Assembly: GCA_001799615.1 (NCBI GenBank)
Contig: MGTU01000009.1
Coordinates: 64,576-128,575, forward strand
Source: Elusimicrobia bacterium GWA2_61_42
Lineage (GTDB): Bacteria > Elusimicrobiota > Elusimicrobia > Elusimicrobiales > UBA9959
Reading direction: 5' to 3'
Length of the DNA stretch: 64,000 bases
How positions within the stretch are numbered: the first letter of the stretch is position 1; each line of letters opens with the position of its first letter. A model generated the notes under the pieces. It was not told the DNA's origin. It did not search any database and saw only the letters and a program-made list of their open reading frames with translations. A program made the position numbers and the translations under genes. This document shows, piece after piece, positions 17,098 through 53,221 of the stretch.

Positions 17098-18084
17098 TTA
17101 TTCAGCCGGGAGTTCCACCAGTTCGGCGGAGCCGGCCACGGAAAAGGCCTGCGTGTCGTCGAGGTCGGTGCGGAAGATCTGCGCGCCCACGGCCCTGAGG
17201 CGCTCCAGCGCGCCCTGCGTGGGGTGGCCGTAATTGTTCTTGCCCACCTCTATGTAGGCCTTGGCGGGCCGTACGGCTTTCAGAAAAATATCGGTGGAGG
17301 AATACTTGCTGCCGTGGTGCCCGACCTTGAGCACGTCGGCCTTCAGCTCGGCCCCGTAGGCCGCCACCAGCCTGGCTTCGGCGTCGTCCTGGGTGTCGCC
17401 GGTGAAAAGCAGGGAGGCGCCGCGGTAGGAAAGCTTGAACGTTATGGAACAGTTGTTAAGCGCGTCGCTGTTGGAGCTGAGCCCGGGCGCGGAACAGGCG
17501 TTAAAGACCTTTACCTCCACCCCGGGGGCGCTCCAGTCCAGCCGGTCTCCGGCCGCGGGATAAACGGTGTTGACGCCCAGGGTTTTCACCTGCGCGCGCA
17601 GGGTATTGTCGCCGGTGGCCCCTTTGTTGTCCATGCGGGTGTCGTAAAAATTGCCGACGGTCATATTCGAGAAGACATATTCAAGGCCGTTGTAGTGGTC
17701 GCTATGGGGGTGGGTAAGCACTACCTGGTCGATCCTGGTCACTTTTTTATCGGCCAGGAACCTGGCCAGGGGGCCGTCGGCGGCTTTATAGGGGCCGCCG
17801 TCTATCAGCGCGTTGCCGCCGCCGGGCAGCTCTATATAGATAGAGTCGCCCTGGCCGACATTAAGGAAGTAAACGTTAAGCCCCGGGGCCGGGGTAAAGA
17901 GCGTGGCGTTCTGGGGGACGGGCGCGTAGGGAACCTCTACGGAGGGCGCGGCTTCTACAAGCTGCGTGAAGGCCTGCGCCTTTGCGGAGGGGACAAAATG
18001 GAATACGGATAGAATAAGGAATAAAAAGGAAATAACGGTTTTAAGGGCTGCGGGTGCTGGAGAGTTCTTGTTCACGTGATGCAT
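17098..18084 (-). CDS. Secreted ComEC/Rec2-type MBL-fold hydrolase
   Basis: 328 aa. Start at 18084 because AGGTGG lies 3-8 nt before it and a signal segment (TVISFLFLILSVFHFVPSAKA) follows. The metallo-beta-lactamase core matches the C-terminal domain of ComEC: YFLNVGQGDSIYIEL, LIDGG, THPHSDHYNG (zinc ligands), LLFTGD and LKVGHHGSKYSS. There are no ComEC channel helices, so this is a free periplasmic hydrolase, plausibly a nuclease or phosphodiesterase. Confidence 0.9.
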   Translation of the reverse strand: MHHVNKNSPAPAALKTVISFLFLILSVFHFVPSAKAQAFTQLVEAAPSVEVPYAPVPQNATLFTPAPGLNVYFLNVGQGDSIYIELPGGGNALIDGGPYKAADGPLARFLADKKVTRIDQVVLTHPHSDHYNGLEYVFSNMTVGNFYDTRMDNKGATGDNTLRAQVKTLGVNTVYPAAGDRLDWSAPGVEVKVFNACSAPGLSSNSDALNNCSITFKLSYRGASLLFTGDTQDDAEARLVAAYGAELKADVLKVGHHGSKYSSTDIFLKAVRPAKAYIEVGKNNYGHPTQGALERLRAVGAQIFRTDLDDTQAFSVAGSAELVELPAE

Positions 18085-18227
18085 ATCCACCTCCGCTAAA
18101 CGTCTGCGGTCCTGCCGTGGTGAATCCGGATTAAGGTCCGGAGGTGGATGCTCCCCGGCCAATTCCGGGGATTACACAGCAACTATATACACTCTACCGC
18201 CAACATTGATTTTGCTCAAGGGCCAAA

Positions 18228-44051: not shown

Positions 44052-45434
44052 TCAAAGCGTCCGCGCCGGGCGCTGCTCGTCGAGCAGCGCGTAGACGGTC
44101 ACGGGCTTTTCCCAGCCGCGCACCGGGTGGTCGCCCAGTTCCTTGAAGATGAATTCCGGTCCCAGGTTCTCCCGCACTTCGCGCGAGACTATGATGGTGG
44201 TGCCCAGGCGCTTGTTCAGCCCTTCCAGCCGCGCCGCCAGGTTCACGGGGGGGCCTATGGCCGTGTACTCCGCCCTGTCCTCGCTGCCCACGGTGCCCAC
44301 TACGGCCGGGCCGAAAGTGACGCAGAGCCCGACCTGTATCTGCGGCAGGCCCTTGAGCTTGCGCTCGGCGTTGAAGACTTCCACGGAATCCCTCATGCGC
44401 ACCGCGGCCCGCAGCGCTTTTGCGGCGGCGCCTTCCAGGCGCACCGGCGCCCCGAAAAGCGCCAGCAGCCCGTCGCCGATGAACTTGTCCACGCTGCCGC
44501 CGAAGGTCTGCACTACCTGCGTCATCCTGGAAAAATAGTCGTTGAGCATGGAAACCGTCTGCTCGGGGCTCATCTCCAGGCTCAGCTTGGAGAAATCCCT
44601 GATATCGGCGAAGAGGACGGCTATCTCGCGTCTTTCCCCGGCCAGCTCCACGGTGTCCTTCAGCAGCGTGTCCGCCACGTCGCGCGAAACATAGCGCCCG
44701 AACACTTGCCTGATGCGGTCCCGCTCCCTGAGACCTTTGGCCATGTCGTCGAAAGCCGAGGCCAGCAGGCCTATCTCGTCGGAGCCGTGCCAGCCCACCT
44801 CCGCGTCCAGTTTGCCTTCGCCGATGGCCTTGGCGGCGCGCGAAAGCAGCGGGATGGGGCGGGTGAACCAGTTAACGATCAGCACCGTGCCCAGCAGCGC
44901 TATGAGCAGGGCCGCGGCGGAGAGCAGCAGCAGCCTGTTCCTGGCGCCTTTCAGCGCGGCCGACAGGGATTGATGGGTTACCAGCACGGCGGCGGTACCC
45001 AGGCGCGCCTTGCCCATGTTGATTGGCGCTGAAATGTAATAGGACTTGCCGTCCCTGGCGGGCAGCTCCTGCGTTAAAGCGGAGCCCGCGGCCAGCGCGC
45101 GGGCCGCTTCCGCGGAAAGGTCCTGCTCGCCTATCTTTTCGGGGTCGGAGTGGGAAAGCGCCTTGCCGTAGGCGTCAAAAACGAGCGCGGAGCTTATCGC
45201 CTTTTCCTTGGCCATCTCGCTTACCCGCTGGTGCAGGGTAAAGATGTCCAGCGCCGGGGTAAAGGCTTCCCGGGAGGTCTGCGCGAAGGCTTCCGTCCTG
45301 ACCCCGAGTTCCAGCAGCAGCGAATTGCGGGCCTCGTCCATGATCCTTTGGGACATGGCCCCTATGACGGCCAGGATCAGGGCGGAGGAGAAAATGCAGA
45401 GTTTTACCGACAGCTTGCTGAAGAATTTTTTCAT
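44052..45434 (-). CDS. Membrane class III adenylate/guanylate cyclase
   Basis: 460 aa. TM at about 11-28, an extracytoplasmic sensor of about 140 residues, TM at about 188-207, HAMP (TRPIPLLSRAAKAIGEGKLD), then the cyclase domain: IAVLFADIRDFSKLS (first metal Asp), DKFIGDGLLALFG (purine Lys and second Asp) and EYTAIGPPVNLAARLEGL (transition-state Asn). The usual Asp of the last motif (IGDxVN) is Pro here. Product (cAMP or cGMP) cannot be decided. It ends 15 nt from the convergent SRAP gene and lies downstream of the surface-protein gene. Confidence 0.93.
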   Translation of the reverse strand: MKKFFSKLSVKLCIFSSALILAVIGAMSQRIMDEARNSLLLELGVRTEAFAQTSREAFTPALDIFTLHQRVSEMAKEKAISSALVFDAYGKALSHSDPEKIGEQDLSAEAARALAAGSALTQELPARDGKSYYISAPINMGKARLGTAAVLVTHQSLSAALKGARNRLLLLSAAALLIALLGTVLIVNWFTRPIPLLSRAAKAIGEGKLDAEVGWHGSDEIGLLASAFDDMAKGLRERDRIRQVFGRYVSRDVADTLLKDTVELAGERREIAVLFADIRDFSKLSLEMSPEQTVSMLNDYFSRMTQVVQTFGGSVDKFIGDGLLALFGAPVRLEGAAAKALRAAVRMRDSVEVFNAERKLKGLPQIQVGLCVTFGPAVVGTVGSEDRAEYTAIGPPVNLAARLEGLNKRLGTTIIVSREVRENLGPEFIFKELGDHPVRGWEKPVTVYALLDEQRPARTL

Positions 45435-49769: not shown

Positions 49770-49899
49770 CTATATAATATACAATAACTTGCGCGCGCGG
49801 ACCACTACCTCGCCGGCGTTATCTCAACCCCTTTAAAGCTAGAAATCGATGTGTACAAAATAGCCCTTGAAATATCGGGTTTTGTCTGCTATACCATAG

Positions 49900-50031
49900 T
49901 AACGATAATAGCAACCCCGGAACGAAAGGCCGGGGGCGCAAAGCCGCGGGGCTAAAGAGACCAAGTGTCTATACGCCAGACGGGCTGCCGAACGATCAGT
50001 GTTGGTCTCTTGCCGGCTAGGCTACCGAATA
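49900..50031 (+). promoter_or_regulatory. GEMM-I (cyclic dinucleotide) riboswitch aptamer
   Basis: The first stem CCCCGG (49915-49920) / CCGGGG (49930-49935) is capped by a C-GAAA-G tetraloop; GCAAAGCC (49938-49945) is the most conserved GEMM word. The second stem starts GC-TAA-AGAGACCAA (49951-49964) and closes with TTGGTCTCT-T-GC (50002-50012), a tetraloop-receptor-like arrangement, and ends with GGCTACCGA (50020-50028). The 37-nt insert at the tip contains GGGCTGCCGAACGAT, which resembles the 3' motif again. The base aligned with Vc2 position 20 reads A, which would favour cGAMP over c-di-GMP, but a 1-nt ambiguity leaves this open. The rest of the 49770-50094 gap carries promoters for both divergent genes. 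Confidence 0.9.
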
Positions 50032-50080
50032 AGTGAGTCTATTGTATATATAGGCTTTCACTATTCGGTATTTTTATTCT
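50023..50080 (+). terminator. Riboswitch expression-platform terminator
   Basis: TACCGAATAAGTGA (50023-50036) pairs with TCACTATTCGGTA (50058-50070) with one bulged A, followed by TTTTTATT. The left arm reuses the last aptamer bases (TACCGA), so aptamer and terminator should exclude each other: ligand binding would turn the downstream gene ON. Confidence 0.88.
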
Positions 50081-50094
50081 AAAAAGGGGACCTT

Positions 50095-52266
50095 ATGATC
50101 GGCGCAGCGGCGAAAAACTTCCTGGTGGCGGCAGCGATGCTGCTGGCCCCCCGCGCCTACGCCCAGTTCCAGGCCACCACCCCGCTGCCCCAGGCCCTGC
50201 TCTCCCACACCGCGGTAACCCTTAACGGCCGCATCTACGTGGCCGGCGGCATAAGCGATGCCGGCAGCGTTACCGGCGGCTCCGGTTATATCAACAACAT
50301 CTATTACTGCGCCGACATGAATCCCGACGGCACCCTGGGCGCCTGGAAGGCCGCCAGCCCCATGCCCGAGTTCCTGGGCCTGGGCATGCACGCGGCGGCC
50401 TCTTATAACGGCCGGCTCTATGTTCTGGGCGGCACCAACCTTTTAGGCCCGCGCAACGTGGCGTATTTCTCCGCGGTCAACGCGGACGGCACCCTCACCG
50501 GCTGGCAGCCGACCACCCCCATGCCGCAGAAAGTGGCGGCCCACGCCGCGGCGATCTACGGCGGCAGGCTGTATGTGACCGGCGGCAGCGTGCGCAATAC
50601 CGGGGCTACCGCCCTGACCTATTCCGCCCCTATCAACGCCGACGGCGCCCTGGGCGAGTGGCGTTACGAGACGCCTCTGCCTTCCACGCTGTTCGGCCAT
50701 AAGTCCTTTACCCGCGCGGGCAAGCTTTTTGTGCTGGGCGGCTCGGCCGCGCCCAGGATGTACGGCGAGGAAGGCCTTCCCGCCGGCGCTATCTCCTCCA
50801 TGGTTTACGGAGCGGCTATCAACGCCGACGGCACGCTGGGCGCCTGGGCGGCGCAGCCGGCCATGCCGGCGCAGCTGGCCCTGTTCGCGCTGGTGGACAC
50901 GGAGAAGAGCGTCTACCTGCTGGGCGGTTTCGACGGGGGCGTGGTGAACTCGGTTTACTTCTCGCCTATTTCCGCCGACGGCGCCCTGGGCGACTGGCAG
51001 GCGCTGCAGGCCCTGCCGCAGAACCTGCTTTCGCTGGCGGCCGTGGCTACCCCGGACTACCTCTATTCCCTGGGCGGCGGGCTGGCCTACATCGAAACCC
51101 CCGTCAACTCCATCTACTTCGCCAAGCTCAAGGCCGAGCCCCGGGCTTTCGTTAAGCTGAATCCTTCTTCTATTAATAAGGGGGCCAACGGCAAATGGGT
51201 GACCGTCATTATAGGCCTGCCGGAAGCCGACGCCGCCGCGGTGGTTCCGGCCAGCGTTAAGATCTCGGCTATTAACGGCCAGGCCATCGCCCCCATACTG
51301 CCGGACCCGAAATGGACCGCCAGCCTGCATAGCGGGGACAGCGCGGATTTCTCCGGCATGGCCGGCGTCAGCTACTTAATGCTGAAGTTCGGCCGGCAGG
51401 AAGTGGCGCAGGTGATCCCCGAAGGCGAGTTCTCCGTTAAAGTGGAGGGCCTGCTGGCGGACGGCAGGGCCTTCAGCGGCGAGAGCATGAACCGCGGCCT
51501 CTCCAGCAAGAAACTGTTCTCCGCGCTGATGGAAGCGCGCGCCGGCGAACGCAAAGGCGCCGGCGGCGTTAAAGTGAATATCCCCAAAGGCGCTTTCAAA
51601 GGCAACGCGGACCTGCTGCTTACGGCGGCCCCCGAGGATACCGACGCCGTAGCGGCGCCGGAGAAAGAGAAGCGCTCGAAGGGCATGAAGACCCGCGGCC
51701 TGGCGGCGGCTTCGGAGTCTTTCGAATTCGGCCCGCACGGCGAAGCGTTCGCCAAGCCGGTCACGATCTCCCTGCCTTATAACGCGGCCGGCCTGCCCGC
51801 CGGCGCGGACGAGAACAACCTGAAGGTGGCGTACTGGAACCAGGCGGCCGGCGAGTGGGAGGTCCTGCCCTCCGTGGTTTCCAAGGCCGACAAACTGGTC
51901 AGCGCCGACGTAGCGCATTTCTCGGTTTACCAGGTGGTGTCCGAAGCCGTCCCGACGGCGGCGCCGCAGGCCTTCGCCCTGGGCGAGGTTTACGTGTTCC
52001 CCAACCCGGCCCTGGCCGGCGCCAGGCCCAAACTGCACATAGCGGCTTCCGCCGGTGATAAGGCCGCGGTTAAGGTTTACTCGGTTTCCGGCAGACTGGT
52101 CTATGAAACCAATTACGCGGGCGCGCCCGCGCCGGTGGCAGGCGCGCAGGCCTACGAGCTCGAGCTGGCCGGGGAATTTACCAGCGGGATCTATTATTAC
52201 CTGGCGGAGGTCAGCAGCGGGGCGGCCAAGCTTAAAAAATCCGGCAAGTTCGCGGTGGTAAGGTAA
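50095..52266 (+). CDS. Secreted kelch-repeat surface protein with sorting-like tail
   Basis: 723 aa. Signal peptide to about 24 (RAYAQ). Residues 25-345 hold six kelch-like blades, each with a variant of NADGTLGAW followed by a Pro-rich turn and a GGRLYVLGG-type strand. A ZU5/Ig-like stretch follows (VKVNIPKGAFKGNADLLLTA, about 485-600). The last 90 residues (VYVFPNPALAGARPKLHIAA, VKVYSVSGRLVYE, GIYYYLAEVSSG) resemble a type IX-type sorting domain. It is controlled by the riboswitch just upstream; AAAGGGG ribosome site. Probable adhesin or glycan-binding protein. Confidence 0.88.
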   Translation: MIGAAAKNFLVAAAMLLAPRAYAQFQATTPLPQALLSHTAVTLNGRIYVAGGISDAGSVTGGSGYINNIYYCADMNPDGTLGAWKAASPMPEFLGLGMHAAASYNGRLYVLGGTNLLGPRNVAYFSAVNADGTLTGWQPTTPMPQKVAAHAAAIYGGRLYVTGGSVRNTGATALTYSAPINADGALGEWRYETPLPSTLFGHKSFTRAGKLFVLGGSAAPRMYGEEGLPAGAISSMVYGAAINADGTLGAWAAQPAMPAQLALFALVDTEKSVYLLGGFDGGVVNSVYFSPISADGALGDWQALQALPQNLLSLAAVATPDYLYSLGGGLAYIETPVNSIYFAKLKAEPRAFVKLNPSSINKGANGKWVTVIIGLPEADAAAVVPASVKISAINGQAIAPILPDPKWTASLHSGDSADFSGMAGVSYLMLKFGRQEVAQVIPEGEFSVKVEGLLADGRAFSGESMNRGLSSKKLFSALMEARAGERKGAGGVKVNIPKGAFKGNADLLLTAAPEDTDAVAAPEKEKRSKGMKTRGLAAASESFEFGPHGEAFAKPVTISLPYNAAGLPAGADENNLKVAYWNQAAGEWEVLPSVVSKADKLVSADVAHFSVYQVVSEAVPTAAPQAFALGEVYVFPNPALAGARPKLHIAASAGDKAAVKVYSVSGRLVYETNYAGAPAPVAGAQAYELELAGEFTSGIYYYLAEVSSGAAKLKKSGKFAVVR

Positions 52267-52273
52267 AGGCATT

Positions 52274-53221
52274 ATGAAATTCCTGGACGGAGGGGCGAAA
52301 AAGGACGCGTTCAACAGCCTGATCTACTGGCTGTGCCGTCCTTACGTGCTGCTGCTCGCGGCGGCCTTCCTGCTTATGCCTTCCGTAAAACTGGTGCAGG
52401 CGCTGGAGAGCGGCGCCGATTTCCTTAACATAGGCGTCAGCGCCAGGGCCTCGGCGCTGGGCTCGGCCTATACGGCGCTGGCCGCCGGTTCCAACGCCAT
52501 CTATTACAACCCCGGGGGCCTGGGCCTGGCCAAGCGCGAGGTTTCCCTTATGCACTCGGCCTGGGCGCTGGACGGCAGCTACGATTTCGCCGCGGCGGCT
52601 TTCCCGGTGGCCGGCTTTACCGGCGCGGTGTCCTTCACCCGCCTGGACCACGGCGGCCTGGACGGCAGAGGGCCGGGGCGCGAAAGTTCGGGGGGTTTCT
52701 CCGCGGCCGACAAGGCGGTGGGGTTCGGCCTGGCGCGTACGGCCGGCGGCTTCAGCCTGGGCGTCGGGGCCAAATATCTTTCCAGCAGCATAGCCGGCTA
52801 CGAAGCTTCCTCCATGGCTTTCGACGTGGGCGCCGTGCAGAAACTGAACAACGCGCCGGTCACGCTGGGCCTCTCCGTGCGCAATATGGGGCGCGGCCTC
52901 AAATTCATAGATAAGCGCGAGTCGCTGCCCCTCACGGTAAGCGCGGGCGCCGCCGTGGCGGTGCTTTCTTCTATAAGCCTGGCGGCCGAGGTCAGCCGCC
53001 TGATGTACGACCGCCGCACCTCTTTTGCCGTCGGCACGGAGTACGGCCTTACCGGCAACCTGGCGCTGCGCGGCGGCTACGCGGCCGGCAGCGATGGCGC
53101 GCCCGGGGCTATGACCGGCGGCGTCGGCTTCAGCGCCGGCTCCATGAAGATCGACTACTCCTTCAGCCCCTTCGGTGAAATGGATACCACCAAGAAATTC
53201 AGTCTTTCCATGTCCTTCTAA
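52274..53221 (+). CDS. PorV/PorQ-family outer membrane protein
   Basis: 315 aa. N-terminal signal-like segment (about 22-42), then GADFLNIGVSARASALGSAY, AIYYNPGGLG and alternating barrel strands ending in KFSLSMSF, the UPF0164/PorV signature. Seven nt after the kelch gene, so cotranscribed and under the same riboswitch. Expected to shuttle or assemble the surface protein at the outer membrane. Confidence 0.9.
   Translation: MKFLDGGAKKDAFNSLIYWLCRPYVLLLAAAFLLMPSVKLVQALESGADFLNIGVSARASALGSAYTALAAGSNAIYYNPGGLGLAKREVSLMHSAWALDGSYDFAAAAFPVAGFTGAVSFTRLDHGGLDGRGPGRESSGGFSAADKAVGFGLARTAGGFSLGVGAKYLSSSIAGYEASSMAFDVGAVQKLNNAPVTLGLSVRNMGRGLKFIDKRESLPLTVSAGAAVAVLSSISLAAEVSRLMYDRRTSFAVGTEYGLTGNLALRGGYAAGSDGAPGAMTGGVGFSAGSMKIDYSFSPFGEMDTTKKFSLSMSF

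Follow-up and report, generated by a model that had tools for sequence, protein, structure and literature searches.

A GEMM-I riboswitch leader with two alternative aptamer 3' halves upstream of a kelch-repeat protein gene in Elusimicrobiota

Introduction

In the pilM GEMM-I riboswitch of Geobacter metallireducens the 3' region of the aptamer overlaps the terminator, with ON logic, and in the Cd1 c-di-GMP-I riboswitch of Clostridioides difficile, which has little or no P1 helix, the aptamer is compatible with the terminator; for both, PMC9262584 reports half-lives of 25-190 s for the ligand-bound state, where the decision takes a few seconds. A leader may also offer two binding arrangements, as in the tandem c-di-GMP-I riboswitches described in PMC9481103 and PMC12452182.

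The stretch of DNA analyzed here, 64,000 nucleotides of an Elusimicrobia bacterium and hereafter called the window, holds a GEMM-I element ahead of a gene for a kelch-repeat protein, as an earlier note on the same DNA had proposed. On the evidence of sequence, its single 5' half is able to pair alternatively with either of two 3' halves, for which the name tail is coined here, and this layout is real and conserved.

Results and discussion

The leader is preceded by a sigma-70-like promoter at 49867..49895 on the + strand (-35 TTGAAA at 49867-49872, a 17-nt spacer and an extended -10 TG-C-TATACC at 49887-49895), from whose position transcription is expected to start near 49901. Because the promoter ends at 49895, the 5' end of the RNA is expected at the edge of the aptamer, with scant space for a P1 helix. 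A pattern search found a TTGNNN, 16-18 nt, TANRVY arrangement just upstream in 19/19 family members. A cmscan search against Rfam RF01051 (c-di-GMP-I, GEMM-I), as suggested in the earlier note, returned a significant covariance-model match at 49900-49992 that scores 56.9 bits (gathering score 35; E-value 1.8e-8 when the whole window is searched, 6e-11 when only the local stretch is), and so upholds the GEMM-I aptamer. RF01051 is also the best Rfam family for this element, and the same genome (G000, 2.95 Mb) carries two further GEMM-I elements elsewhere.

The shared 5' half (49903..49952, +), as delimited by the cmscan match and an alignment of 15 relatives (A1), comprises the position-20 region, the P2 (P1b) hairpin with its GAAA loop, GCGCAAAGCC and the P3 5' strand at 49942-49952, AGCCGCGGGGC, which can pair with either tail. 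Tail 1 (49975..49992, +) reads GCCAGACGGGCTGCCGAA and ends with GGGCTGCCGAA at the end of the cmscan match. It is followed by a spacer (49993..50011, +) in which TTGGTCTCT (50002-50010) matches AGAGACCAA (49956-49964) by complementarity, so that P3 becomes longer when the tail-2 fold is adopted, and by tail 2 (50012..50029, +), GCCGGCTAGGCTACCGAA, ending with AGGCTACCGAA, whose ACCGAA doubles in the 5' arm of the intrinsic terminator. The latter, located by folding at 50023..50075 on the + strand (stem 50023-50070, T-run 50071-50075), has a fold of -20.3 kcal/mol and a stem that ends 1 nt from the T-run. The overlap between terminator and aptamer end claimed in the earlier note is confirmed in this form, and the repeat that it had reported, GGGCTGCCGAA / GGCTACCGAA, is real, but the aptamer end recognized by Rfam is the first copy (49992) and not the second. 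Likewise, its 37-nt insert in the second stem does exist, but holds a complete conserved 3' half that forms part of one of two alternative completions. The receptor-like second stem fared less well, as a canonical tetraloop receptor, read by eye against what we take to be its motif, was not seen in the window with either tail. Two full tandem aptamers were considered and rejected, since the leader has one 5' half and a single RF01051 match, which covers the tail-1 aptamer only.

Fifteen family relatives served to build a covariance model (R1), which was run on 340 Elusimicrobiota genomes and gave 20 places of at least 88 bits, all in one family, the next score being 66 bits. Upon reading of the sequences the two-tailed form was recognized in 19/340 genomes, from 7 genera of one family; as a GEMM-I match is present in 139/340, this form is a minority, and GEMM-I as such is by no means rare in Elusimicrobiota. 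One of the 20 places, L152 (G150), carries tail 1 only, without tail 2 or terminator, and runs directly into an apparent ribosome-binding site and ATG, its same-genus counterparts L147, L149 and L150 being two-tailed; both parts have apparently been lost naturally here. Remoter two-tailed forms in the phylum are L155, L158 and L160, together with L112, in which the second tail is degenerate (by eye).

In alignment A1, nine P3 pairs per fold were chosen by hand, a G-A pair in fold 1 and a C-A pair in fold 2 being left out of the counts. The tail-1 pairs were kept in 97.8% of cells and the tail-2 pairs in 99.3%, against at most 44.4% of cells paired in slid controls of either tail, and the observed percentage paired was matched by 1/500 and 0/500 shuffles. 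In the same alignment, further pair types were not above shuffles in either fold, and neither was the count of tail-2 pairs changed on both sides (303/500 shuffles reach it). P3 position 45 is C in 9/19 relatives, always with G in both tails, and U in the other 10/19, where tail 1 has 6 A and 4 G and tail 2 has 9 A and 1 G; it covaries with both tails (Fisher 0.008 for tail 1 and 0.0001 for tail 2, among 19 relatives that are related and therefore non-independent), and the covariation support comes mainly from this one column of related sequences. Conservation follows the same division of the leader, with 11/18 invariant columns in tail 1, 12/18 in tail 2 and 0/18 in the spacer (alignment positions 93-110 of A1), and tail 1 keeps the exact single-stranded end RCCGAA in 17/19 relatives, the exceptions being L041 and L148. 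A second strict tail at most 70 nt from the first occurs in 20/152 fetched elements, where shuffles lead one to expect 1.02, in a set biased by the use of the two-tail pattern to fetch 7 of the 20, among which L080 and L090 resemble chance matches. That tail 1 is a recent duplicate was rejected on account of the distinct signatures that the alignments display in most of genus g1, GCCGGACGGGC vs GCCGGCCAGGC. No covariation was seen by eye that would make tail 1 a partner of the right arm of the terminator.

The tail preferred by Rfam was assigned here from match ends and spans in 20 two-tailed loci: the best match ends at tail 2 in 11/20 and at tail 1 in 9/20, the best family being RF03167 in 12 and RF01051 in 8, and in L306, L312 and L158 RF03167 is the best match but stays under its gathering score. 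These figures bear on the view of the earlier note, an ordinary single-aptamer ON switch, in which tail 1 would be a passive insert. The overlap of the terminator with tail 2 favors such a switch, and GEMM-I platforms of this type are established, pilM (PMC9262584) among them; nevertheless, a passive tail 1 is hardly credible, given that Rfam prefers it in nine loci, that it is conserved across 7 genera and that it pairs with the same strand as tail 2.

Folding was used to follow the order of events. In RNA ending at tail 1, the lowest-energy fold contains the tail-1 P3 in 16/19 family members (exceptions L041, L042 and L148), and tail 2 is transcribed about 37 nt later. When three pairs of a chosen tail were imposed on RNA extending to the end of tail 2, the forced tail-2 fold lay below the forced tail-1 fold in energy in 16/19, with a margin of 5.0 kcal/mol in the window; tail 1 was ahead by 0.5-1.2 kcal/mol in L034, L082 and L097, and by 2.6-2.8 kcal/mol in both Omnitrophota loci tried, L075 and L089. 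The unforced lowest-energy fold at the same point has tail 2 in 8/19, tail 1 in 1/19 and neither in 10/19, a mixture that renders exchange between the tails plausible without compelling it. Complementarity between the spacer and the P3 apical strand is above shuffles (duplex p <= 0.05) in 15/22 cases, including the window, where a 10-nt complementary run has p 0.002 vs shuffles. Not every relative has the extended tail-2 helix: the spacer of L033, L035, L039 and L040 seemingly pairs instead with the strand immediately ahead of tail 1 (by eye).

In a survey in which the best T-run within 110 nt was chosen, the terminator hairpin takes 5-6 of the 6 end bases of tail 2 in 19/19 family members (all 6 in the window; in L042 there are 12 nt between stem and T-run), and just 2-3 of the 6 in the distant loci L155, L075 and L089. 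The conserved C of the tail end is, to judge from solved structures, presumably the base that pairs with the ligand, so that within the family the terminator would remove ligand-contacting bases of tail 2 and leave tail 1 free. When tail 1 was imposed on the full RNA, 5-6 of these 6 bases remained paired in the terminator in 15/19 members, and all 6/6 in the window; for the remaining four (L042, L043, L095 and L097) the sequence folded stopped at the first T-run and was shorter than in the survey. With the three pairs of tail 2 forced, the terminator persists in most folds, and mutual exclusion therefore depends on the end bases of tail 2. Tail 2 has the trait of an ON platform, a terminator arm overlapping the 3' end of the aptamer, and the tail-1 aptamer that of an OFF platform, coexistence with the terminator in the forced fold.

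From these folds we infer a direction of control and a role for tail 1, giving an even chance to a ligand-dependent ON switch that would operate through tail 2 and be restrained by a rival, earlier tail-1 aptamer. Tail 1, being transcribed first, could complete a canonical aptamer, and tail 2 would afterwards compete for the same P3 strand. Ligand on the tail-2 aptamer would block the terminator and allow the kelch operon to be read, as in Geobacter pilM. If tail 1 occupied the 5' half, tail 2 would be free and the terminator would form even with ligand bound, as in Clostridioides Cd1. Since the terminator forms with tail 1 in place, tail 1 may be an early rival that limits the output and sets a threshold or a ceiling, and, by analogy with the half-lives of the ligand-bound state in those two riboswitches, a ligand caught by tail 1 could outlast the decision. 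The ON switch proposed earlier thus keeps its basis, a terminator that shares the end of tail 2, but a plain ON switch is an incomplete account because tail 1 can complete the aptamer with the terminator still formed (forced fold).

The same folds may be read with the opposite sign, as an OFF switch in which tail 1 senses, bound ligand excludes tail 2 and lets the terminator form, and the ligand-free tail-2 helix is the antiterminator. This would agree with tail 1 forming first (16/19) and coexisting with the terminator (15/19), as well as with the lower energy of forced tail 2 in 16/19, yet it appears decidedly improbable: what the terminator sequesters is the single-stranded end of tail 2 and not most of the P3 helix, and as it forms in most folds despite forced tail 2, it should not be stopped by a tail-2 helix that lacks ligand.

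An unlikely extension is a band-pass switch, in which a single ligand and a single 5' half serve two 3' halves of opposite sign. The terminator would form at low ligand, at intermediate ligand the tail-2 aptamer would be caught and the gene turned on, and at high ligand the earlier tail-1 aptamer would be caught and the terminator would form again. A kinetic toy model with assumed rates, which separates the predictions and proves nothing, gave a bell-shaped response when bound tail 1 was non-exchangeable, a plain rise when it was exchangeable, and a rise followed by a late fall when tail-1 binding was weak. If true, the band-pass switch would amount to a natural riboswitch with a non-monotonic response and no tandem aptamers.

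Outside Elusimicrobiota, a contig scan with a strict pattern gave 25 stretches, of which 12 were of Elusimicrobia type, 2 from Omnitrophota, 1 from Chloroflexi and 1 from Poribacteria, the other 9 being judged chance; in the Poribacteria locus (L074) only the second tail passed the strict pairing test. R1 was also run on 285 Omnitrophota genomes, and 50 places were selected, namely 29 of the 30 returned loci, L075 (the thirtieth) and 20 long-span places. By eye, 16/50 of them are two-tailed, a figure that is no prevalence because the places were picked for score or length. A variant tail 1, about GRGCGYACCGAYAAC, accompanies a canonical tail 2 in 8/16 of these two-tailed loci (by eye). The loci L276, L281, L288, L295, L296, L303, L304 and L308 have this common variant, about CGCCGRGCGYACCGAYAACG, with a canonical tail 2. 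In all eight the best Rfam match ends at tail 2, and their variant tail 1 may be non-binding.

It is somewhat unlikely, though a real possibility, that in practice tail 1 binds no ligand and is instead a structural competitor (an anti-antiterminator) that stabilizes the OFF state, the tail-2 aptamer being the sole sensor. The eight Omnitrophota loci, with their variant tail 1, canonical tail 2 and Rfam matches ending at the latter, point in this direction, as do several Omnitrophota loci in which a canonical-looking UAUG receptor strand is found in the tail-2 fold only (by eye). Against it, RCCGAA, which is unneeded for P3 pairing, is kept by tail 1 in 17/19 Elusimicrobiota, and Rfam gives the window tail-1 aptamer 56.9 bits.

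The putatively regulated gene is an ORF at 50095..52266 (+) encoding a kelch-repeat protein of 723 aa (Pfam kelch PF24681, 56.5 bits, cut-off 50), as the earlier note had read it. Its N-terminus is signal-peptide-like by eye and its C-terminus weakly resembles a type IX sorting domain (TIGR04183, 19.5 bits, below the cut-off of 23); the orthologue at L097 passes the same model with 24.0 bits (cut-off 23). The next gene, at 52274..53221 (+), encodes a PorV/PorQ family protein of type IX secretion (NF033709, 141.2 bits, cut-off 90). The frame following the leader seems to encode the same kelch protein in 14/15 relatives (N-terminus by eye; L042 from the leader), and the next long frame of L041, without a Pfam match, resembles by eye the PorV/PorQ protein of the window. 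In the Omnitrophota loci L075 and L089 the element lies ahead of the gene for an HD-domain protein (HD_5 in L075, by resemblance in L089), plausibly a c-di-GMP phosphodiesterase. Elsewhere in the window, a 2dG-II riboswitch (RF03165, 79.6 bits, gathering 60) was matched at 18112-18182 (-), at the start of a frame at 17098-18162 (-) that apparently encodes a secreted protein with a metallo-beta-lactamase fold, or ComEC-like (by eye).

Regarding the ligand, A at Vc2 position 20 is taken here to be a trait of GEMM-Ib (3',3'-cGAMP). The cmscan alignment places A in the window opposite the consensus G of this position, in agreement with the earlier reading. The orthologues L041, L042, L082, L095, L097 and L148, from other genera, have G, and with this alternation among orthologous elements the preferred ligand may have changed while the architecture was conserved. 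A G or A alternative in the binding pocket is described in PMC9481103, and PMC9262584 treats position 20 as a selectivity factor and not as a hard filter. In Hypr GGDEF cyclases a Ser replaces the canonical Asp (PMC6456294). No Hypr GGDEF was seen in the genome itself (94.8% complete), where Asp is present in each of the 5 domains read out of 6 (all but L130), and no Hypr Ser was seen in the genus, where 35/35 distinct motifs have Asp (30 best-match loci of 32 genomes plus the genome's own loci), with a motif pattern that would miss divergent domains. A supply of cGAMP through Hypr GGDEF is not supported, as every GGDEF motif read has Asp. The all-Asp motifs make c-di-GMP likelier than cGAMP, so that the ligand is probably c-di-GMP and 3',3'-cGAMP is less likely. 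Near the riboswitch-controlled operon, the window also contains a frame at 44052-45434 (-) that by eye shows a HAMP-like region and a likeness to class III adenylate/guanylate cyclases.

Conclusions

The two-tailed element is a variant within GEMM-I and not a new riboswitch class. No description of its layout was found in the open-licence papers searched; according to PMC9481103, a survey set overlapping matches aside as single riboswitches, and the two-tailed design may have been overlooked in this way. If the proposed mechanism is true, a riboswitch can hold two competing versions of its aptamer by doubling one half only, a compact means to tune a threshold or to make a dose window, and in an uncultured member of Elusimicrobiota a cyclic dinucleotide would be tied to the display of a kelch protein that is possibly secreted by the type IX system. 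Two-tailed relatives occur in two little-studied phyla, Elusimicrobiota and Omnitrophota.

Compared with known systems, c-di-GMP-I-GGC (RF03167) is the best match of many Omnitrophota two-tailed loci, whereas the window element best matches RF01051. As portrayed in PMC9262584, pilM has a single 3' half, in contrast to the second complete 3' half found upstream in the window, and Cd1 differs from the window element in being an OFF switch that has one 3' half and a distinct antiterminator. The tandems (PMC9481103 and PMC12452182) consist of two complete aptamers, whereas the window element doubles its 3' half alone and has two arrangements that exclude each other.
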